Shown here piece after piece: positions 16,857-55,612 of a DNA stretch of 64,000 nucleotides. The notes under the pieces were generated by a model, which saw only the letters and a program-made list of their open reading frames with translations, was not told where the DNA came from and ran no database searches. Position numbers and translations under genes: made by a program. The DNA comes from Acidovorax sp. GW101-3H11 (GTDB lineage: Bacteria > Pseudomonadota > Gammaproteobacteria > Burkholderiales > Burkholderiaceae_C), in NCBI RefSeq assembly GCF_001633105.1, contig NZ_LUKZ01000003.1:62352-126351 (forward strand), given 5' to 3'. Each line of letters starts with the position of its first letter. Within the stretch, counting starts at the first letter, position 1.

Positions 16857-17222
16857 TCAGTGCGCTTTCTCGATCCGCTGGACGTGGTAGGCCCCGCTGA
16901 TCTGTTCGGCCCGAAAGCGCACCTTGTCGCCGGGCTTCAAGTCGCCCAGCACGCTGGCATCCGCCACGCGGAACACCATGGTCATGGGCGGCATCTCCAG
17001 GTTCTTGATCTCGCCGTGCTTCAGCGTGACGCGCAGGGTGCGTGGGTCCCAGCGGGTGATTTCGCCTTCGCTCAACTCCGCGCCCTGCGGCGTGGGTGGG
17101 GCGGCATGGTGGCTGCTGTGGCTGTCCGATGCGGTTGCGGCCGGTGCTTGCGCCAGCGCGGGCCCTGCGGCCAGCAGGACGAGGCTGGCCGCCAGCGGGA
17201 TGGAGAGGAATGCAATCTTCAT
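16857..17222 (-). CDS. CusF-like periplasmic copper-binding protein
   Basis: This 121-residue protein has a signal peptide (residues 1-25, ending ALAQ) and a single OB-fold copper-binding domain. The segment HGEIKNLEMPPMTMVFRV carries the Met-rich copper site seen in CusF, where Met, His and Trp ligands hold Cu(I) or Ag(I). A His-rich patch (DSHSSHHA) follows the signal peptide. In Cus systems such proteins hand copper to the RND pump; no pump is nearby here. The start overlaps the DUF411 stop by 4 nt (ATGA), implying translational coupling. Confidence 0.88.
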   Translation of the reverse strand: MKIAFLSIPLAASLVLLAAGPALAQAPAATASDSHSSHHAAPPTPQGAELSEGEITRWDPRTLRVTLKHGEIKNLEMPPMTMVFRVADASVLGDLKPGDKVRFRAEQISGAYHVQRIEKAH

Positions 17223-17737
17223 GTCGATGCCTTCTTGTTGTAGCTGTTGAACACGCGCGTGCTGCCGTCGTGCGCCACCAGCAGCACGTCGTAGGGGTCG
17301 CGCCGGTCGCCATACACGGCGCCGTCCATGCCCGGCGAGCCCACGGGCATGCCGGGCACCGCCAGGCCCAGCGCCTTGGGCTTTTGCTGCAGCAGCTTGC
17401 GCACGTCACTGGCGGGCACATGGCCTTCAAGCAGGTAGCCGCCCACCAGCGCGGTGTGGCACGACCCCAGCGTTTGCGGCAGGCCCAGGCGGGCGCGCAC
17501 CGCGTTGTTGCCGGTGGCGTGCACTTTCACGGCAAAGCCGTTGGCTTGCATGTGGTCCACCCAGTCCTGGCAGCAGCCGCAGTTGGGGTCTTTCCAGACC
17601 TCGACGGGCGTGGGTGTTGCGGCACGTGGGGCGGTGGGCAGCAGGGCGATGGCCAGGCCCGCGCCTGCGAGGGGCAGGGCGGTGGCAAGCCATTGGCGGC
17701 GGCTGGGCTGGGCGCGGGAGGCAGAGGGTTGCGTCAT
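17219..17737 (-). CDS. DUF411 metal-binding protein
   Basis: This 172-residue protein has a Tat-like leader (PSRRQWLATALPLAGAGLAI) and a DUF411 domain: VEVWKDPNCGCCQDWVDHM with a CxCC motif, LGSCHTALVGGYLLEGHVPA, and MPVGSPGMD. The family is frequently linked to copper resistance and probably binds or reduces copper in the periplasm. ATG 17737 has GGAG about 8 nt upstream; an in-frame ATG at 17770 would put residues in front of the Tat motif and overlap the previous stop, so it is less likely. Confidence 0.85.
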   Translation of the reverse strand: MTQPSASRAQPSRRQWLATALPLAGAGLAIALLPTAPRAATPTPVEVWKDPNCGCCQDWVDHMQANGFAVKVHATGNNAVRARLGLPQTLGSCHTALVGGYLLEGHVPASDVRKLLQQKPKALGLAVPGMPVGSPGMDGAVYGDRRDPYDVLLVAHDGSTRVFNSYNKKAST

Positions 17738-17766: not shown

Positions 17767-18264
17767 TCATGGCTTGCGCGGCAGCACAGTGATGGTGCCC
17801 GTCATGCCCGCCTGGTAGTGGCCCGCGATGAGGCAGGCAAAGTCGAACTGGCCTGCGCGGTTGAACTGCCACACGATGTCGCCCTTCTTGCCCGCGCCCA
17901 CATGGGCCATGTAGGGCTCGTCGTGTTCCATGCCGGGGTGCTTGGCCATCATCTCGGCGTGCGCATCCAGCTCGGGCTTGGTACCGATCACGATCTCGTG
18001 CAGCACCTGGCCCTTGTTCTCGGCGCGCAGCCGCACGGTCTCGCCTTCGCGCACTTCGATGTGACGGGGCGTGAAGCGCATGTCGTCCGTCATGCGGATG
18101 GTGATGGTGCGGGCTACGGCCTGGGTGTCGCCAGCAATGCCCCAAGGCTTTTGTTCCTTCACCACCGGGGCGTTGCGGGCCGTGTGGGGCATGTTTTCAT
18201 GGCCAAAAGAGGCGTTTCCGCCCGCTAGTAAAGCGCAAGCAGCTATCAATTTAATAGTATTCAT
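17767..18264 (-). CDS. Cupredoxin family copper-binding protein; signal peptide encoded by a dispersed repeat
   Basis: This 165-residue periplasmic cupredoxin has type-1-like copper ligand motifs: HEIVIGT (His), and near the C-terminus FDFACLIAGHYQAGM (Cys, His, Met). A Met/His-rich stretch (HAEMMAKHPGMEHDEPYMAH) may bind extra copper. It resembles CopI-type copper-tolerance proteins. The N-terminus TIKLIAACALLAGG is the hydrophobic signal-peptide core, and its DNA (18203-18261) is a copy of the dispersed repeat family described below, read in the reverse orientation. It sits between the multicopper oxidase and DUF411 genes in one operon. Confidence 0.88.
   Translation of the reverse strand: MNTIKLIAACALLAGGNASFGHENMPHTARNAPVVKEQKPWGIAGDTQAVARTITIRMTDDMRFTPRHIEVREGETVRLRAENKGQVLHEIVIGTKPELDAHAEMMAKHPGMEHDEPYMAHVGAGKKGDIVWQFNRAGQFDFACLIAGHYQAGMTGTITVLPRKP
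18203..18261 (+). repeat. Dispersed bipartite hairpin repeat, copy 1 (signal peptide of cupredoxin)
   Basis: The copy contains GCCCGCTAGTAAAGCGCAAG followed by AGCTATCAATTTAATAGT. It fits the family pattern: an A/T-rich edge, GGC..., GCGC-type dyad, then the AT-rich dyad CTATYAA...TTRATAG. It lies wholly within the 5' end of the cupredoxin gene. Confidence 0.8.
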
Positions 18265-18277
18265 GGTGTGTCCTGTC

Positions 18278-19660
18278 TCAGTGCTGGTGGCCGCTGGTGG
18301 CGGGTTTGCGGGCGCTGGCGGCGCCGGGGGCGGTGCCCGGCGTGGTGGTGCGCGCGGGGCGGGGTGTGCTGGCGGGTGCGCCCTGCCATTCGTAGGCCTG
18401 CGTGCCTGCTGGCTGGGTGTAGTCGCCGGGGTCGCGGTAGTCGCCCGCCGCCTGACTGGCGCGCACCTTGAAGGTGGTGAACATGCCGCCCATCTCCAGC
18501 GGGCCATAGGGGCCGGTGCCGGTCATCATGGGAAAGGTGTTGTCGGGCAGCGGCATCTCCATGGCACCCATGTCGGCCATACCGCGCTCGCCCATCACCA
18601 TGTAGTCGGGCACGATCTTCTGGATCTTGCCGACCAGGCCTGCATGCTGAACGCCGATCATGGTGGGCACGTCGTGCCCCATGGCGCCCATGGTGTGGTG
18701 GCTCTTGTGGCAGTGCAGGGCCCAGTCGCCGGGCTCGTCGGCAATCAGCTCGATCTGCCGCATCTGGCCCACGGCCACATCGGTGGTCACCTCGGGCCAG
18801 CGCGCGCTGCGCGGCACGGGGCCGCCGTCGGTGCCGGTCACCTCGAACTCATGGCCGTGGATATGGATGGGGTGGTTGGTCATGGTGAGGTTGCCCACGC
18901 GGATGCGCACGCGCTCGCCCTGGCGCGCCACCAGCGGGCTGATGGCCGGGAACACGCGGCTGTTCCAGCACCAGATGTTGTGGTCCAGCATGGTGTTGAC
19001 CTTGGGGGTCATGCTGCCGGGCTCCACATCGAAGGCGTTGAGCAAAAACGCGTAGTCGCGCTGCACGGTGGCAATCTGCGGGTGGCTGCCCTTGGGGTGG
19101 GTGATCCACAGGCCCATCATGCCCATGGCCATCTGCACCATCTCGTCGGCATGCGGGTGGTACATGAAGGTGCCGGGGCGGCGCGCCACGAACTCGTAGA
19201 CAAAGGTCTTGCCCGGCGCAATGCCCGGCTGGTTGAGCCCGCCTACGCCGTCCATGCCGTTGGGCAGGCGCTGGCCGTGCCAGTGGATGGTCGTGTGCTC
19301 GGGCAGGCGGTTGGTGACGAAGATGCGCACGCGATCGCCCTCGACCACCTCGATGGTGGGGCCGGGGCTCTGGCCGTTGTACCCCCATAGGTTGACCATG
19401 AAGCCGGGCGCCACCTCGCGCACCACGGGCTCAGCCACCAGGTGGAACTCTTTGACGCTGGCATTCATGCGCCAGGGGGCGGTCCAGCCGTTCAGGGTGA
19501 CCACGGGGTTGTAGGGGCGGCCCGTGGGCGGGTGCAGCGGCGGCGCGGTGTCGGCGCTCGACTGCATCGCGGGCTCGGGCAGCGCGGCCAGGGCCACGCG
19601 GCTGACGGAAGCGGCGGCCACGGCCGTGGCCGCGCCGGAGAAGAAATTGCGGCGGTTCAT
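18278..19660 (-). CDS. Multicopper oxidase
   Basis: This 460-residue exported oxidase has a Tat-type leader (NRRNFFSGAATAVAAASVSRV). All four copper-ligand motifs are present: HWHG, HPHAD, HIHGHEF and HCHKSHHTMGAM; the last places the His-Cys-His of the T1/T2/T3 sites. Such enzymes oxidise Cu(I) to the less toxic Cu(II) using O2. A Met-rich run (MVQMAMGMMG, and DMGAMEMPLP) may bind substrate copper. It follows the TolC-like gene by 3 nt. It is CopA-like by role but shorter than the classical 600-residue CopA. Confidence 0.92.
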   Translation of the reverse strand: MNRRNFFSGAATAVAAASVSRVALAALPEPAMQSSADTAPPLHPPTGRPYNPVVTLNGWTAPWRMNASVKEFHLVAEPVVREVAPGFMVNLWGYNGQSPGPTIEVVEGDRVRIFVTNRLPEHTTIHWHGQRLPNGMDGVGGLNQPGIAPGKTFVYEFVARRPGTFMYHPHADEMVQMAMGMMGLWITHPKGSHPQIATVQRDYAFLLNAFDVEPGSMTPKVNTMLDHNIWCWNSRVFPAISPLVARQGERVRIRVGNLTMTNHPIHIHGHEFEVTGTDGGPVPRSARWPEVTTDVAVGQMRQIELIADEPGDWALHCHKSHHTMGAMGHDVPTMIGVQHAGLVGKIQKIVPDYMVMGERGMADMGAMEMPLPDNTFPMMTGTGPYGPLEMGGMFTTFKVRASQAAGDYRDPGDYTQPAGTQAYEWQGAPASTPRPARTTTPGTAPGAASARKPATSGHQH

Positions 19661-26807: not shown

Positions 26808-27695
26808 TTACTCCTCATTTGATAGCTGCTTTGGCAAGCTGGTCGTGCGCAGAGGCCACTTTTTATCCAAATTTTCACCAACTGCCGTGGCGGCCAGCGC
26901 TTCGTCGATCAGCTGGGTGATCTCCGGCCGGGGCGCCATGGGCGCGAACGCACTCACCCGCGCGCGGCCGATGTTGCCCATGGGCAGCCGTGCCAGCGCA
27001 TGGCCCAGCGGCACCAGCGCCAGCCGCAGCAACTGGCCCGCCGCCTCGCGCGGGTCGCGCAGCTGCAGTGCATAGCGCAGCATGGCGGTGTGCGAGCGCC
27101 AGTGCAGCGACAGCGTGGTCTGCCCTAGCACATGGGCGGCCTCCAGCCAGTGCCAGCGCGTCGTGGGTGGTGCACCTGCATCGCGGGCGAAGGCGGCGAG
27201 CAGGTGGTCGAACGCGGCCTGTTGCTGCCAGGGCGGGGTGGTGGCGCTTGCCCCGCGCTGTGCGGCCAGCTGGCGCCAGCGCCGCTGGCGGTGCCGGTAA
27301 AACAGCTGGGCAAAGGCCGCGCTCAGCGGTGTCATCAACCAGGGCAGGTGGCGGGCCACAACCTCGATGTCGTCGGTGTACAGCGTGCGGCCGTCGGGCA
27401 GCGCCTGCAGGGTGATGCGGTGGTCCCAGCGCCGCATCAGCGCACCCTCGCCGTTGTCGCGCAGCGTGGGCCAGCCACCGGCCTGCGCGGGCGCCTCGAT
27501 GGAGATGCGCACGGTTTGCGGGCCCATGGGCAGCAGGCCCAGCAGCCACATCTGCACGCGCAGGTCGCCGGGGGACCAGTGGGCGGGCCAGGGCGTGCCG
27601 CCCGGGCGCTTGAACCGTACCAGCGGCGCGGTGATGTGGCGGAACACGGCGGTGCTTTGCAGCTGCGCCGCCACCCAGTCGGGCGGCGCATTCAA
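26808..27695 (-). CDS. SRPBCC-like plus DUF3703 domain protein
   Basis: This protein of about 295 residues has an N-terminal half resembling a START/SRPBCC-like barrel (LVRFKRPGGTPWPAHWSPGD, LMRRWDHRITLQALPDG, FAQLFYRHRQRRWRQL). The C-terminal half matches DUF3703 (FDHLLAAFARDAG, HWLEAAHVLGQTTLSLHWRS, MGNIGRARVSAFAPM), a family often next to cation transporters, as here. No in-frame ATG exists after the upstream stop; TTG 27695 (giving MNAPPDW) is proposed, with GTG 27674 as an alternative. The last residues (KQLSNEE and the stop) are encoded by a dispersed repeat copy. Function is unknown. Confidence 0.75.
   Translation of the reverse strand: MNAPPDWVAAQLQSTAVFRHITAPLVRFKRPGGTPWPAHWSPGDLRVQMWLLGLLPMGPQTVRISIEAPAQAGGWPTLRDNGEGALMRRWDHRITLQALPDGRTLYTDDIEVVARHLPWLMTPLSAAFAQLFYRHRQRRWRQLAAQRGASATTPPWQQQAAFDHLLAAFARDAGAPPTTRWHWLEAAHVLGQTTLSLHWRSHTAMLRYALQLRDPREAAGQLLRLALVPLGHALARLPMGNIGRARVSAFAPMAPRPEITQLIDEALAATAVGENLDKKWPLRTTSLPKQLSNEE
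26811..26868 (-). repeat. Dispersed bipartite hairpin repeat, copy 2 (3' end of DUF3703 gene)
   Basis: On the minus strand it reads AAAAAGTGGCCTCTGCGC, a short spacer with GCTTGCC, then AAAGCAGCTATCAAATGAGG. It supplies about the last 18 codons of the DUF3703 gene, in a different frame from the other coding copies. Confidence 0.8.
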
Positions 27696-32695: not shown

Positions 32696-32780
<85 letters not shown>

Positions 32781-33047: not shown

Positions 33048-33132
<85 letters not shown>

Positions 33133-40299: not shown

Positions 40300-40311
40300 G
40301 AAATTTGGGTG

Positions 40312-40373
40312 TTTTTGGCCTCTTGCGCCTGATGGTAAAGCGCGAGTAGCTATTATTTTTGTAGTGTTTGTTC
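40312..40373 (+). repeat. Dispersed bipartite hairpin repeat, copy 5
   Basis: It reads TTTTTGGCCTCTTGCGCC, spacer GATGGTAA, AGCGCGAGTAGCTATTATT, then TTTGTAG. It is one of the best-preserved copies. The amidase stop codon (TAA, 40353-40355) lies inside it. Confidence 0.85.
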
Positions 40374-54439: not shown

Positions 54440-54448
54440 GGGGCTGCG

Positions 54449-55612
54449 ATGAGTGCTTCCCCCCGCATCGCCATGGTGGCGGGCGAGACATCGGGCGATT
54501 TGCTCGCCGGTCTGTTGATCGATGGCATGCAGGCCCACTGGCCGGGGTTACAGTCCTGTGGCATCGGCGGCCCGCAGATGGCGCGCCGGGGCTTCAGCGC
54601 CTGGTGGCCCAGCGAAAAGCTGGCTGTGCATGGCTACAGCATGGAAGTGCTGCGCCGCCTGCGCGAACTGCTGGGCATCCGCAAACAACTGCGCGAGCGC
54701 CTGCTCAAGGACCGCCCCGACGTGTTCATCGGTGTGGACGCGCCCGATTTCAACCTGGGGCTGGAGGCCGACTTGCGGGCCGCTGGCATCAAGACGGTGC
54801 ACTTCGTGTGCCCGTCGATTTGGGCCTGGCGCGCCGAGCGGGTGGAGAAAATACGCCGCAGCGCCGACCATGTGCTGTGCATTTTTCCGTTCGAGCCGGA
54901 GTTGCTCGCGCAGCATGGCATTGCCGCCACCTACGTGGGCCATCCACTGGCCGGGGTGATCCCCATGGTGCCCGACCGCGCAGCAGCCCGGGCGCAGCTG
55001 GGTCTGCAGGACAGCGACGAAGTCCTGGCCGTCCTGCCTGGCAGCCGGTCTTCAGAGGTCCAGTACATCGCCAAACCCTTTTTTGAGGCGGCTGCGCTGA
55101 TCCGCCAAGCGCGACCAGCTATCAAATTGATAGTGCCTGCCGTCCCGGCGCTGCGTAGCCGCATCGAGCAGGCAGCCCAGGCCTGTGGCCTGGGGGATGC
55201 CATGCAGATCATCACCGGGCAGTCCCACACGGTGCTCGCGGCCTGTGACGCCACGCTGATTGCCAGTGGCACCGCGACGCTCGAAGCAGCGTTGTTCAAG
55301 CGCCCCATGGTGATTGGCTACCACATGCACCCGCTGAGCTGGTGGCTGATGCGCCGCAAACAGCTGCAGCCTTGGGTGGGCTTGCCGAACATTCTGTGCC
55401 GCGATTTTGTGGTGCCCGAGCTGATCCAGGATGCCGCCACCCCGCAGGCGCTCTGCGCGGCCACGCTGGAATGGCTGGATGCCCGGCGCAACAACCCCGC
55501 AAAAATCACGGCGCTGGAGCAGCGCTTTGCAGCGTTGCACGAAAGCCTGCAACGCAATACCCCCCAATTGGCTGCCGATGCGATCCAGAAAATCCTCTCC
55601 CCCGCTGCCTGA
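54449..55612 (+). CDS. lpxB: Lipid-A-disaccharide synthase
   Basis: This 387-residue GT19 glycosyltransferase joins UDP-2,3-diacylglucosamine and lipid X. It has [42 protein letters not shown] and [19 protein letters not shown]. The region [20 protein letters not shown] (about 211-230) aligns without length change to E. coli LpxB, but its DNA is repeat copy 7 with codons (TTG, ATA) rare for this genome. The 3' end overlaps rnhB by 35 nt. Confidence 0.96.
55078..55134 (+). repeat. Dispersed bipartite hairpin repeat, copy 7 (inside lpxB)
   Basis: CTTTTTTGAGGCGGCTGCGC, spacer, AAGCGCGACCAGCTATCAAA, TTGATAG. The CTATCAA/TTGATAG part is a perfect dyad. In frame it encodes Pro-Ala-Ile-Lys-Leu-Ile-Val. 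Confidence 0.8.

Follow-up and report, generated by a model that had tools for sequence, protein, structure and literature searches.

A dispersed palindromic repeat as the probable source of a predicted cupredoxin signal peptide in Acidovorax

REP sequences, which are accompanied by RAYT transposases, are short palindromes that occur at many sites. Rickettsia palindromic elements (RPE) were reportedly described by Ogata and others in 2000 and 2002. A review presents RPEs as sequences of ~150 bp inserted in frame in many Rickettsia genes, and calls a similar process in other prokaryotes conceivable (PMC10969869). BRE, by its description, is a small repeat of Bordetella and Comamonadaceae, 75-91 bp long and with 69% GC, mostly intergenic and with some copies lying wholly in coding sequence (PMC3110155). 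Our analysis of a 64,000-nucleotide stretch of Acidovorax sp. GW101-3H11 (hereafter the window) leads us to regard it as highly probable that a dispersed palindrome of ~65 bp, found in bacteria of the Comamonadaceae type, encodes, in frame, the predicted Sec signal peptide of a cupredoxin, and that it has been used in this way at least three times.

By analogy, judged on description, this repeat is of the same kind as RPE, though we do not call it an RPE. It shows the features of that kind, namely many dispersed copies, a palindromic hairpin, placement in frame in unrelated genes and a recurring peptide, and so resembles the RPEs, dispersed palindromes found in frame inside many unrelated genes, with a recurring peptide. 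It differs from them in length (~65 against ~150 bp), in sequence and in its hosts, GC-rich free-living betaproteobacteria, and also in that sense copies correspond here to predicted signal peptides and antisense copies to hydrophilic loop or linker peptides. What would be new relative to RPE is a protein-coding palindromic element acting as a predicted signal peptide. With BRE it shares the condition of a small betaproteobacterial repeat with some copies within coding sequence, but it is ~65 bp long and AT-rich relative to its genome, and it is set apart by BRE's description; BRE was rejected as its identity on comparison with that description only, the GC-rich 75-91-bp consensus given there being unlike our repeat. 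No Rfam family identified the repeat, the window giving two tRNAs only. A search of open-licence papers found no report of the letters of the repeat or of such elements in Comamonadaceae or Acidovorax, nor of a palindromic element or repeat serving as a signal peptide. As a separate observation, the window contains two tRNA-Leu(CAG) genes (32696-32780 and 33048-33132, minus strand) lying 352 bases apart, with 99% identity over 89 bases.

Table 1. Coordinates of the cupredoxin locus and of the repeat copies in the window
Feature	Position	Strand	Basis
CusF-like periplasmic copper-binding protein	16857..17222	-	Pfam PF11604
DUF411 protein, downstream of cupredoxin	17219..17737	-	Pfam PF04214
Cupredoxin gene, 165 aa	17767..18264	-	Pfam PF00127 32.6 bits (cut-off 21.2), PF13473 29.8 (27)
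Full repeat copy	18197..18259	-	nhmmer, profile positions 3-65 of 68
Predicted Sec signal peptide MNTIKLIAACALLAGGNASFG	18202..18264	-	translation
Gene-derived start ATGAA, just outside repeat	18260..18264	-	profile match begins at 18259
AGGA, likely ribosome-binding site, 6 nt before ATG	18271..18274	-	read from sequence
Multicopper oxidase, upstream of cupredoxin	18278..19660	-	Pfam PF07732, PF07731, PF00394
Repeat copy; antisense strand encodes C-terminal tail and stop of DUF3703-matching ORF	26808..26873	+	94-copy profile	
Repeat copy, non-coding by codon score	28957..29016	+	94-copy profile
Repeat copy, non-coding by codon score	35524..35584	+	94-copy profile
Repeat copy directly before likely start of next gene (FMKIAIVGAGIVGVTT...)	40302..40364	-	94-copy profile
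Repeat copy in frame, antisense, inside LpxB (54440-55612 +)	55086..55134	-	94-copy profile; Pfam LpxB 332.8 bits
Repeat copy, non-coding by codon score	56403..56465	-	94-copy profile

The repeat is a ~65-bp dispersed palindrome with the 68-column consensus.TTgCTatt.tTTTGATAGCTGCTtGCGCTTg.tggtCGcGCGCaAgcGGCcatTTTgacTcaaAatt, and its 19-base core gave 113 matches in the genome (up to 3 mismatches) against one for the reversed control; our census of this genome covers 95 distinct copies among the matches listed. In 56 dispersed copies the arms form an 11-bp stem with 79.4% of cells paired, slid controls being much lower than the named stem, and the stem covaries: it has 24 double-change cells, where shuffles average 15.5 and none of 500 reached as many. 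RNAalifold gave no common fold for the same 56-copy alignment, probably because the loop is blurred in an alignment without gaps. No other of the six reading frames is as hydrophobic as the one used by the signal peptide (best 11-residue Kyte-Doolittle mean 1.64), and this frame is open in 48 of the 95 listed copies; the repeat would thus carry a latent signal peptide. Peptides recur on both strands: sense copies give xIAAxA, and most of the antisense copies in coding sequence give AQAAIK.

A profile built from 94 copies of this genome, that of the cupredoxin excluded, recovered the copy at the start of this gene at E 4.1e-15 as the best of seven in the window, and a profile of the 71 copies not classed as coding gave it 49.7 bits (E 1.1e-14), while 50 block-shuffled windows (3.2 Mb) yielded four matches of at most 9.2 bits. 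On these scores we reject a chance match, and they bear out an earlier note on this DNA, which had claimed a full copy in reverse orientation at the cupredoxin start. The limits given there, 18203-18264, were slightly off: the repeat extends to ~18197, and 18260-18264 (ATGAA) belongs to the gene. The note had also described the remainder of the gene as GC-rich, in agreement with a third-position GC (GC3) of 0.86 outside the element and 0.37 inside it across 35 orthologues, and the hydrophobic core and small residues that it ascribed to the repeat-encoded peptide can be read from the sequence.

The signal peptide itself has a GC3 of 0.42 in 49 element carriers and 0.80 in 61 cupredoxins without the element. 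Low GC3 is hence not a general property of the cupredoxin start, and on the same value of 0.80 we reject an AT-rich start of secreted genes in general. We consider it extremely unlikely that a common-looking signal peptide with AT-rich early codons came to resemble the repeat by convergence or chance: signal-peptide cores are repetitive (L, A, I), but the distance between the score of the copy and the shuffled maximum, the GC3 of element-free orthologues and the lack of any 10-bit match in 56 repeat-poor genomes of the family, where an equal frequency was tested and not seen, all argue against such an origin.

Membership of the cupredoxin family is supported by two Pfam models above their gathering cut-offs. 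CopI-type copper-resistance cupredoxins are the best NCBIfam matches, and the copper gene neighbourhood adds to the likeness, but both CopI models score below their curated cut-offs (NF051440, 100.7 of 280; NF047895, 68.2 of 200). Together with the multicopper oxidase, DUF411 and CusF-like genes, the cupredoxin gene forms a copper cluster. A plasmid origin of the gene was rejected, no match appearing in 'plasmids' at megablast sensitivity. The gene itself supplies the ribosome site, placed between the oxidase stop codon and the cupredoxin start, together with the ATG and the next codon, and the element-free orthologues L285, L286, L287 and L288 also begin ATGAAN; Met1 and Asn2 start outside the repeat, which encodes the remainder of the signal peptide (codons ~3-21). 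On reading, the peptide presents the features of a Sec signal, with a positive start, a hydrophobic core and small residues followed by the conserved mature start. Cleavage would fall before the His-rich mature start, the place where the signal peptide also ends in orthologues without the repeat. A scan for small residues at (-3,-1) was uninformative, as 49/49 carriers and 61/61 element-free sequences passed.

A match to the cupredoxin protein was present in 45 of 47 Acidovorax genomes; 42 of these matches are close orthologues (at least 65% identity), each of which was read at the DNA level. The repeat reached 10 bits or more at the cupredoxin start in 35 of them (30/30 and 5/12), all from genomes with 86 to 369 core matches, and two had decayed copies, at 9.0 bits in G022 (19 core matches) and 5.2 bits in G023 (50). 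The remaining five (G001, G008, G014, G017 and G044, with 0, 5, 3, 2 and 2 core matches, respectively) have unrelated GC-rich signal peptides, the point that the earlier note had proposed to check; these are all five of the genomes with 0-5 core matches. Among named records, the nearest was that of A. kalamii (96%), and 32 of 80 loci reached 10 bits, in records of Acidovorax, Simplicispira, Giesbergeria, Curvibacter, Hylemonella and Polaromonas; the 48 below that score include Hydrogenophaga, Ramlibacter, Limnobacter and Tepidimonas records, and one locus (L432) whose gene start lies too near the contig end to be read.

At the level of the family, a cupredoxin match was found in 246 of 399 genomes, and 84 loci outside the genus, one per genome and taken from the high-scoring end of these matches with some passed over, were compared. 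The repeat scored 10 bits or more in 19, 5 to 10 bits in four, and was not found in 61. All 19 came from the 28 repeat-rich genomes (20 or more core matches, a count that may include the cupredoxin copy itself), and the 56 orthologues from genomes below this threshold scored under 10 bits without exception (Fisher 2e-12, shared ancestry ignored); nine of the 28 repeat-rich genomes had no 10-bit match at the cupredoxin, three of these showing 5-10 bits. Orthologues sharing the same signal peptide without the repeat elsewhere in their genomes, which would have spoken against co-option, were not found for the cupredoxin.

On a tree of the mature cupredoxin with 114 rows, poorly resolved, the repeat state needs 7 changes; on a weakly resolved one with 83 rows, in which weak matches were counted in and 20 of the 61 element-free rows were chosen, it needs ~10, at least four of them forced by well-supported branches. 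Such a tree is too short for origins to be counted on it, and these figures point to several gains, losses or both. Signal peptides with and without the repeat are about equal in length and the copy in NadE replaces rather than lengthens, which does not bear out plain insertion; we infer that the repeat arrived by insertion, or by conversion, displacing an older signal peptide. Co-option of a mobile or dispersed element as a secretion signal, as the earlier note had put it, holds insofar as a dispersed repeat appears as the predicted signal peptide and unrelated ones occur in repeat-poor relatives, mobility being read from dispersion only. The co-option is not peculiar to this genome, being old and found in most of the genus, nor is it unique to the cupredoxin.

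Two further genes, encoding an M16-type peptidase (L171, PF05193) and a DsbD-like protein (L163, PF11412), carry the repeat in the cupredoxin frame in their N-terminal signal-peptide regions. For M16, 10 bits are reached in 26 of 30 genus loci, all but G023 and G022 (decayed) and G017 and G044 (none), and in 7 of 20 further, more distant loci; in other families of the order the repeat appeared in none of 11 readable loci (12 fetched for other comparisons). The DsbD-like gene has it in all 30 genus loci at 30 bits or more and in four of eight further loci, G045, G025 and G046 at 42-48 bits and G008 at 11.9, with G014, G017, G021 and G044 under 6 bits or without a match. Some peptides may outlast the repeat in M16, and here the combination absent from the cupredoxin was partly found: repeat-poor G008 (L267; 5 core matches) keeps the peptide TIKNIAARALL in codons drifted from the repeat, and G066 (2 core matches) has a similar peptide, which we read as decay after loss of the repeat. 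In G055 (L282), among the seven distant loci at 10 bits, the repeat stands ahead of an otherwise complete GC-rich M16 signal peptide, an additive, insertion-like arrangement that is a possible intermediate of signal-peptide replacement.

The age of this state in the genus might suggest that the repeat family descends from a signal-peptide gene and not the reverse. We hold this to be very improbable in view of the covarying hairpin, the presence of copies in either orientation, in various frames and also outside genes, and the sharing of the repeat by three unrelated genes.

Sense copies placed in coding sequence number four among the 95 listed copies, all in the same frame: the three signal peptides and L182, a class I methyltransferase with a PUA domain in which the copy keeps the signal-peptide frame. 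Counting L182 and the LpxB gene of the window, in-frame copies occur in 12 genes besides the three signal peptides among the copies surveyed. The antisense copies fall mostly in linkers and variable loops of proteins matching, in Pfam, NAD synthase, DUF3418, lipoyl-type Pyr_redox_2, a haem-binding ChaN-like protein, an ABC transporter, Glycos_transf_N (KdtA type), Peptidase_M20 (DapE type), CobU, OTCace and the GDP-mannose dehydratase/epimerase family, as well as LpxB, the lipid-A-disaccharide synthase, part of which is encoded by the antisense frame. Relative to repeat-poor Acidovorax, about 4-6 residues are gained with the DapE-type copy and none with that of NadE; replacement or later trimming must therefore be allowed beside plain insertion. 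PrmC (L012) was dropped from this list because the repeat may precede its start, and ProA (L164) because its copy lies on sequence that looks like native ProA; L162 (no Pfam match), L161, L194 and the RHS-linked copies of L204 were also left off. The last locus (G000:C24:44755-50770) holds four nearly identical copies within 4 kb, three of which begin ORFs of similar sequence, one with a sub-threshold RHS match.

The DNA of the three signal peptides is conserved beyond the residues that it encodes. In the 35 cupredoxin, 28 M16 and 33 DsbD-like genus loci compared (repeat-poor loci and the two decayed cupredoxin loci left out), an AT-ending codon of an unchanged residue was the same in the partner at frequencies of 0.82, 0.81 and 0.81 inside the element and 0.45, 0.35 and 0.36 outside, the comparisons being pairs of related species and not independent. 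GC3 for the three genes was 0.37, 0.34 and 0.48 inside against 0.86, 0.88 and 0.88 outside, and ATA coded for isoleucine in 54/96, 41/78 and 35/36 cases inside but in 2/279, 0/337 and 2/364 outside, that is, in 130/210 against 4/980 overall. Disfavoured AT-ending codons are thus about twice as well conserved inside the element as elsewhere in the same genes, so that the DNA itself appears to be held, by selection or by gene conversion.

The persistence of these codons could mean that the DNA is kept mainly for a role at the nucleotide level, such as a hairpin, a protein-binding site or control of transcript or translation, with the signal peptide as a tolerated by-product. The location of most copies outside coding sequence fits such a role, as does the partial persistence of the hairpin in the cupredoxin copies, where 72.7% of cells pair and double changes number 7 (15 of 500 shuffles as high), the cupredoxin copy of the window folding at z -2.2. 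We nevertheless think it unlikely as the main explanation, given that the three genes all have their copy at the very place where a signal peptide is required and in the single hydrophobic frame, that the three signal peptides lack the charged residues usual in the consensus loop, and that repeat-poor relatives have ordinary signal peptides in place of the copy.

Alternatively, gene conversion or repeated re-insertion, and not selection, might keep the signal-peptide DNA near the consensus, rewriting the peptide at times. The three signal peptides of one genome are indeed more alike than across genomes (0.669 within against 0.623 between for cupredoxin and M16, 0.645 against 0.618 for cupredoxin and DsbD-like, and 0.597 against 0.578 for M16 and DsbD-like), with none of 5000 permutations as high for any pair over all 60 positions, and repeat-poor genomes have drifted or unrelated signal peptides. 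The effect is small, the permutation takes no account of phylogeny or of a common base composition, one of 12 comparisons was not significant (M16 and DsbD-like, codon positions 1+2, p 0.24), and selection on the peptide could produce the same loop variants. This slight likeness, confounded as it is by phylogeny and composition, suggests conversion or shared pressures, and we regard maintenance by conversion as somewhat unlikely. It is also conceivable, though on balance doubtful, that the repeat behaves as a travelling and self-homogenising protein module, giving a signal peptide in sense and a harmless loop in antisense, with conversion rewriting the signal peptides in concert while the family is active, and drift or replacement following once it dies.

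With respect to a possible mover, the repeat resembles REP/RAYT systems in being a short palindrome at many sites and in the presence of a single-copy RAYT-like Y1_Tnp gene, but this gene, of RAYT-like length, occurs equally in repeat-rich and repeat-poor genomes; some Y1_Tnp match was found in 14 of 16 genomes, and repeat-rich G186 lacks one. Of nine loci from repeat-rich genomes, three have a repeat copy abutting or overlapping the RAYT-like ORF, namely L473, L474 and L475 (G326, G234 and G412), where the Y1_Tnp ORF is single-copy; none of the seven loci from repeat-poor genomes does. No abutting or overlapping repeat was seen at the two RAYT-like Y1_Tnp ORFs of the present genome. We take this proximity as a lead only. 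G046 and G061 show an IS200-type expansion, with 37 and 20 Y1_Tnp matches that are for the most part near-identical open frames of 153 codons; as far as we can tell, it is unrelated.

Taken together, the data favour the repeat as the coding source of the predicted signal peptides. Translation of the cupredoxin would start at its own ATG, the next codon being also that of the gene, and the repeat, read in a single open frame (consensus-like ..TTG ATA GCT GCT TGC GCT..), would then supply a short positive stretch, L-I-A-A-C-A-L-L as hydrophobic core and N-A-S-F-G as the end with small residues, the conserved His-rich mature cupredoxin beginning after the repeat-encoded part. In more general terms, a mobile or formerly mobile palindrome would land at many sites, and the copies surviving in coding sequence would be those in tolerated frames only: near a start codon the hydrophobic sense frame, able to act as a signal peptide, and in loops the hydrophilic antisense frame. 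We infer that the cupredoxin, M16 and DsbD-like proteins would be exported and cleaved by means of these repeat-encoded peptides.

The way in which new signal peptides come about is still an open question and is rarely seen in action. Here a single identifiable DNA element would have supplied them in three unrelated genes, close relatives that lack it serve as natural controls, and the question of why disfavoured codons persist in exactly these stretches becomes testable. The findings suggest that in-frame palindromic elements, best known from Rickettsia, are present in free-living betaproteobacteria too, and a repeat that looks idle appears, because it forms three predicted export tags, to be a reusable source of secretion signals.
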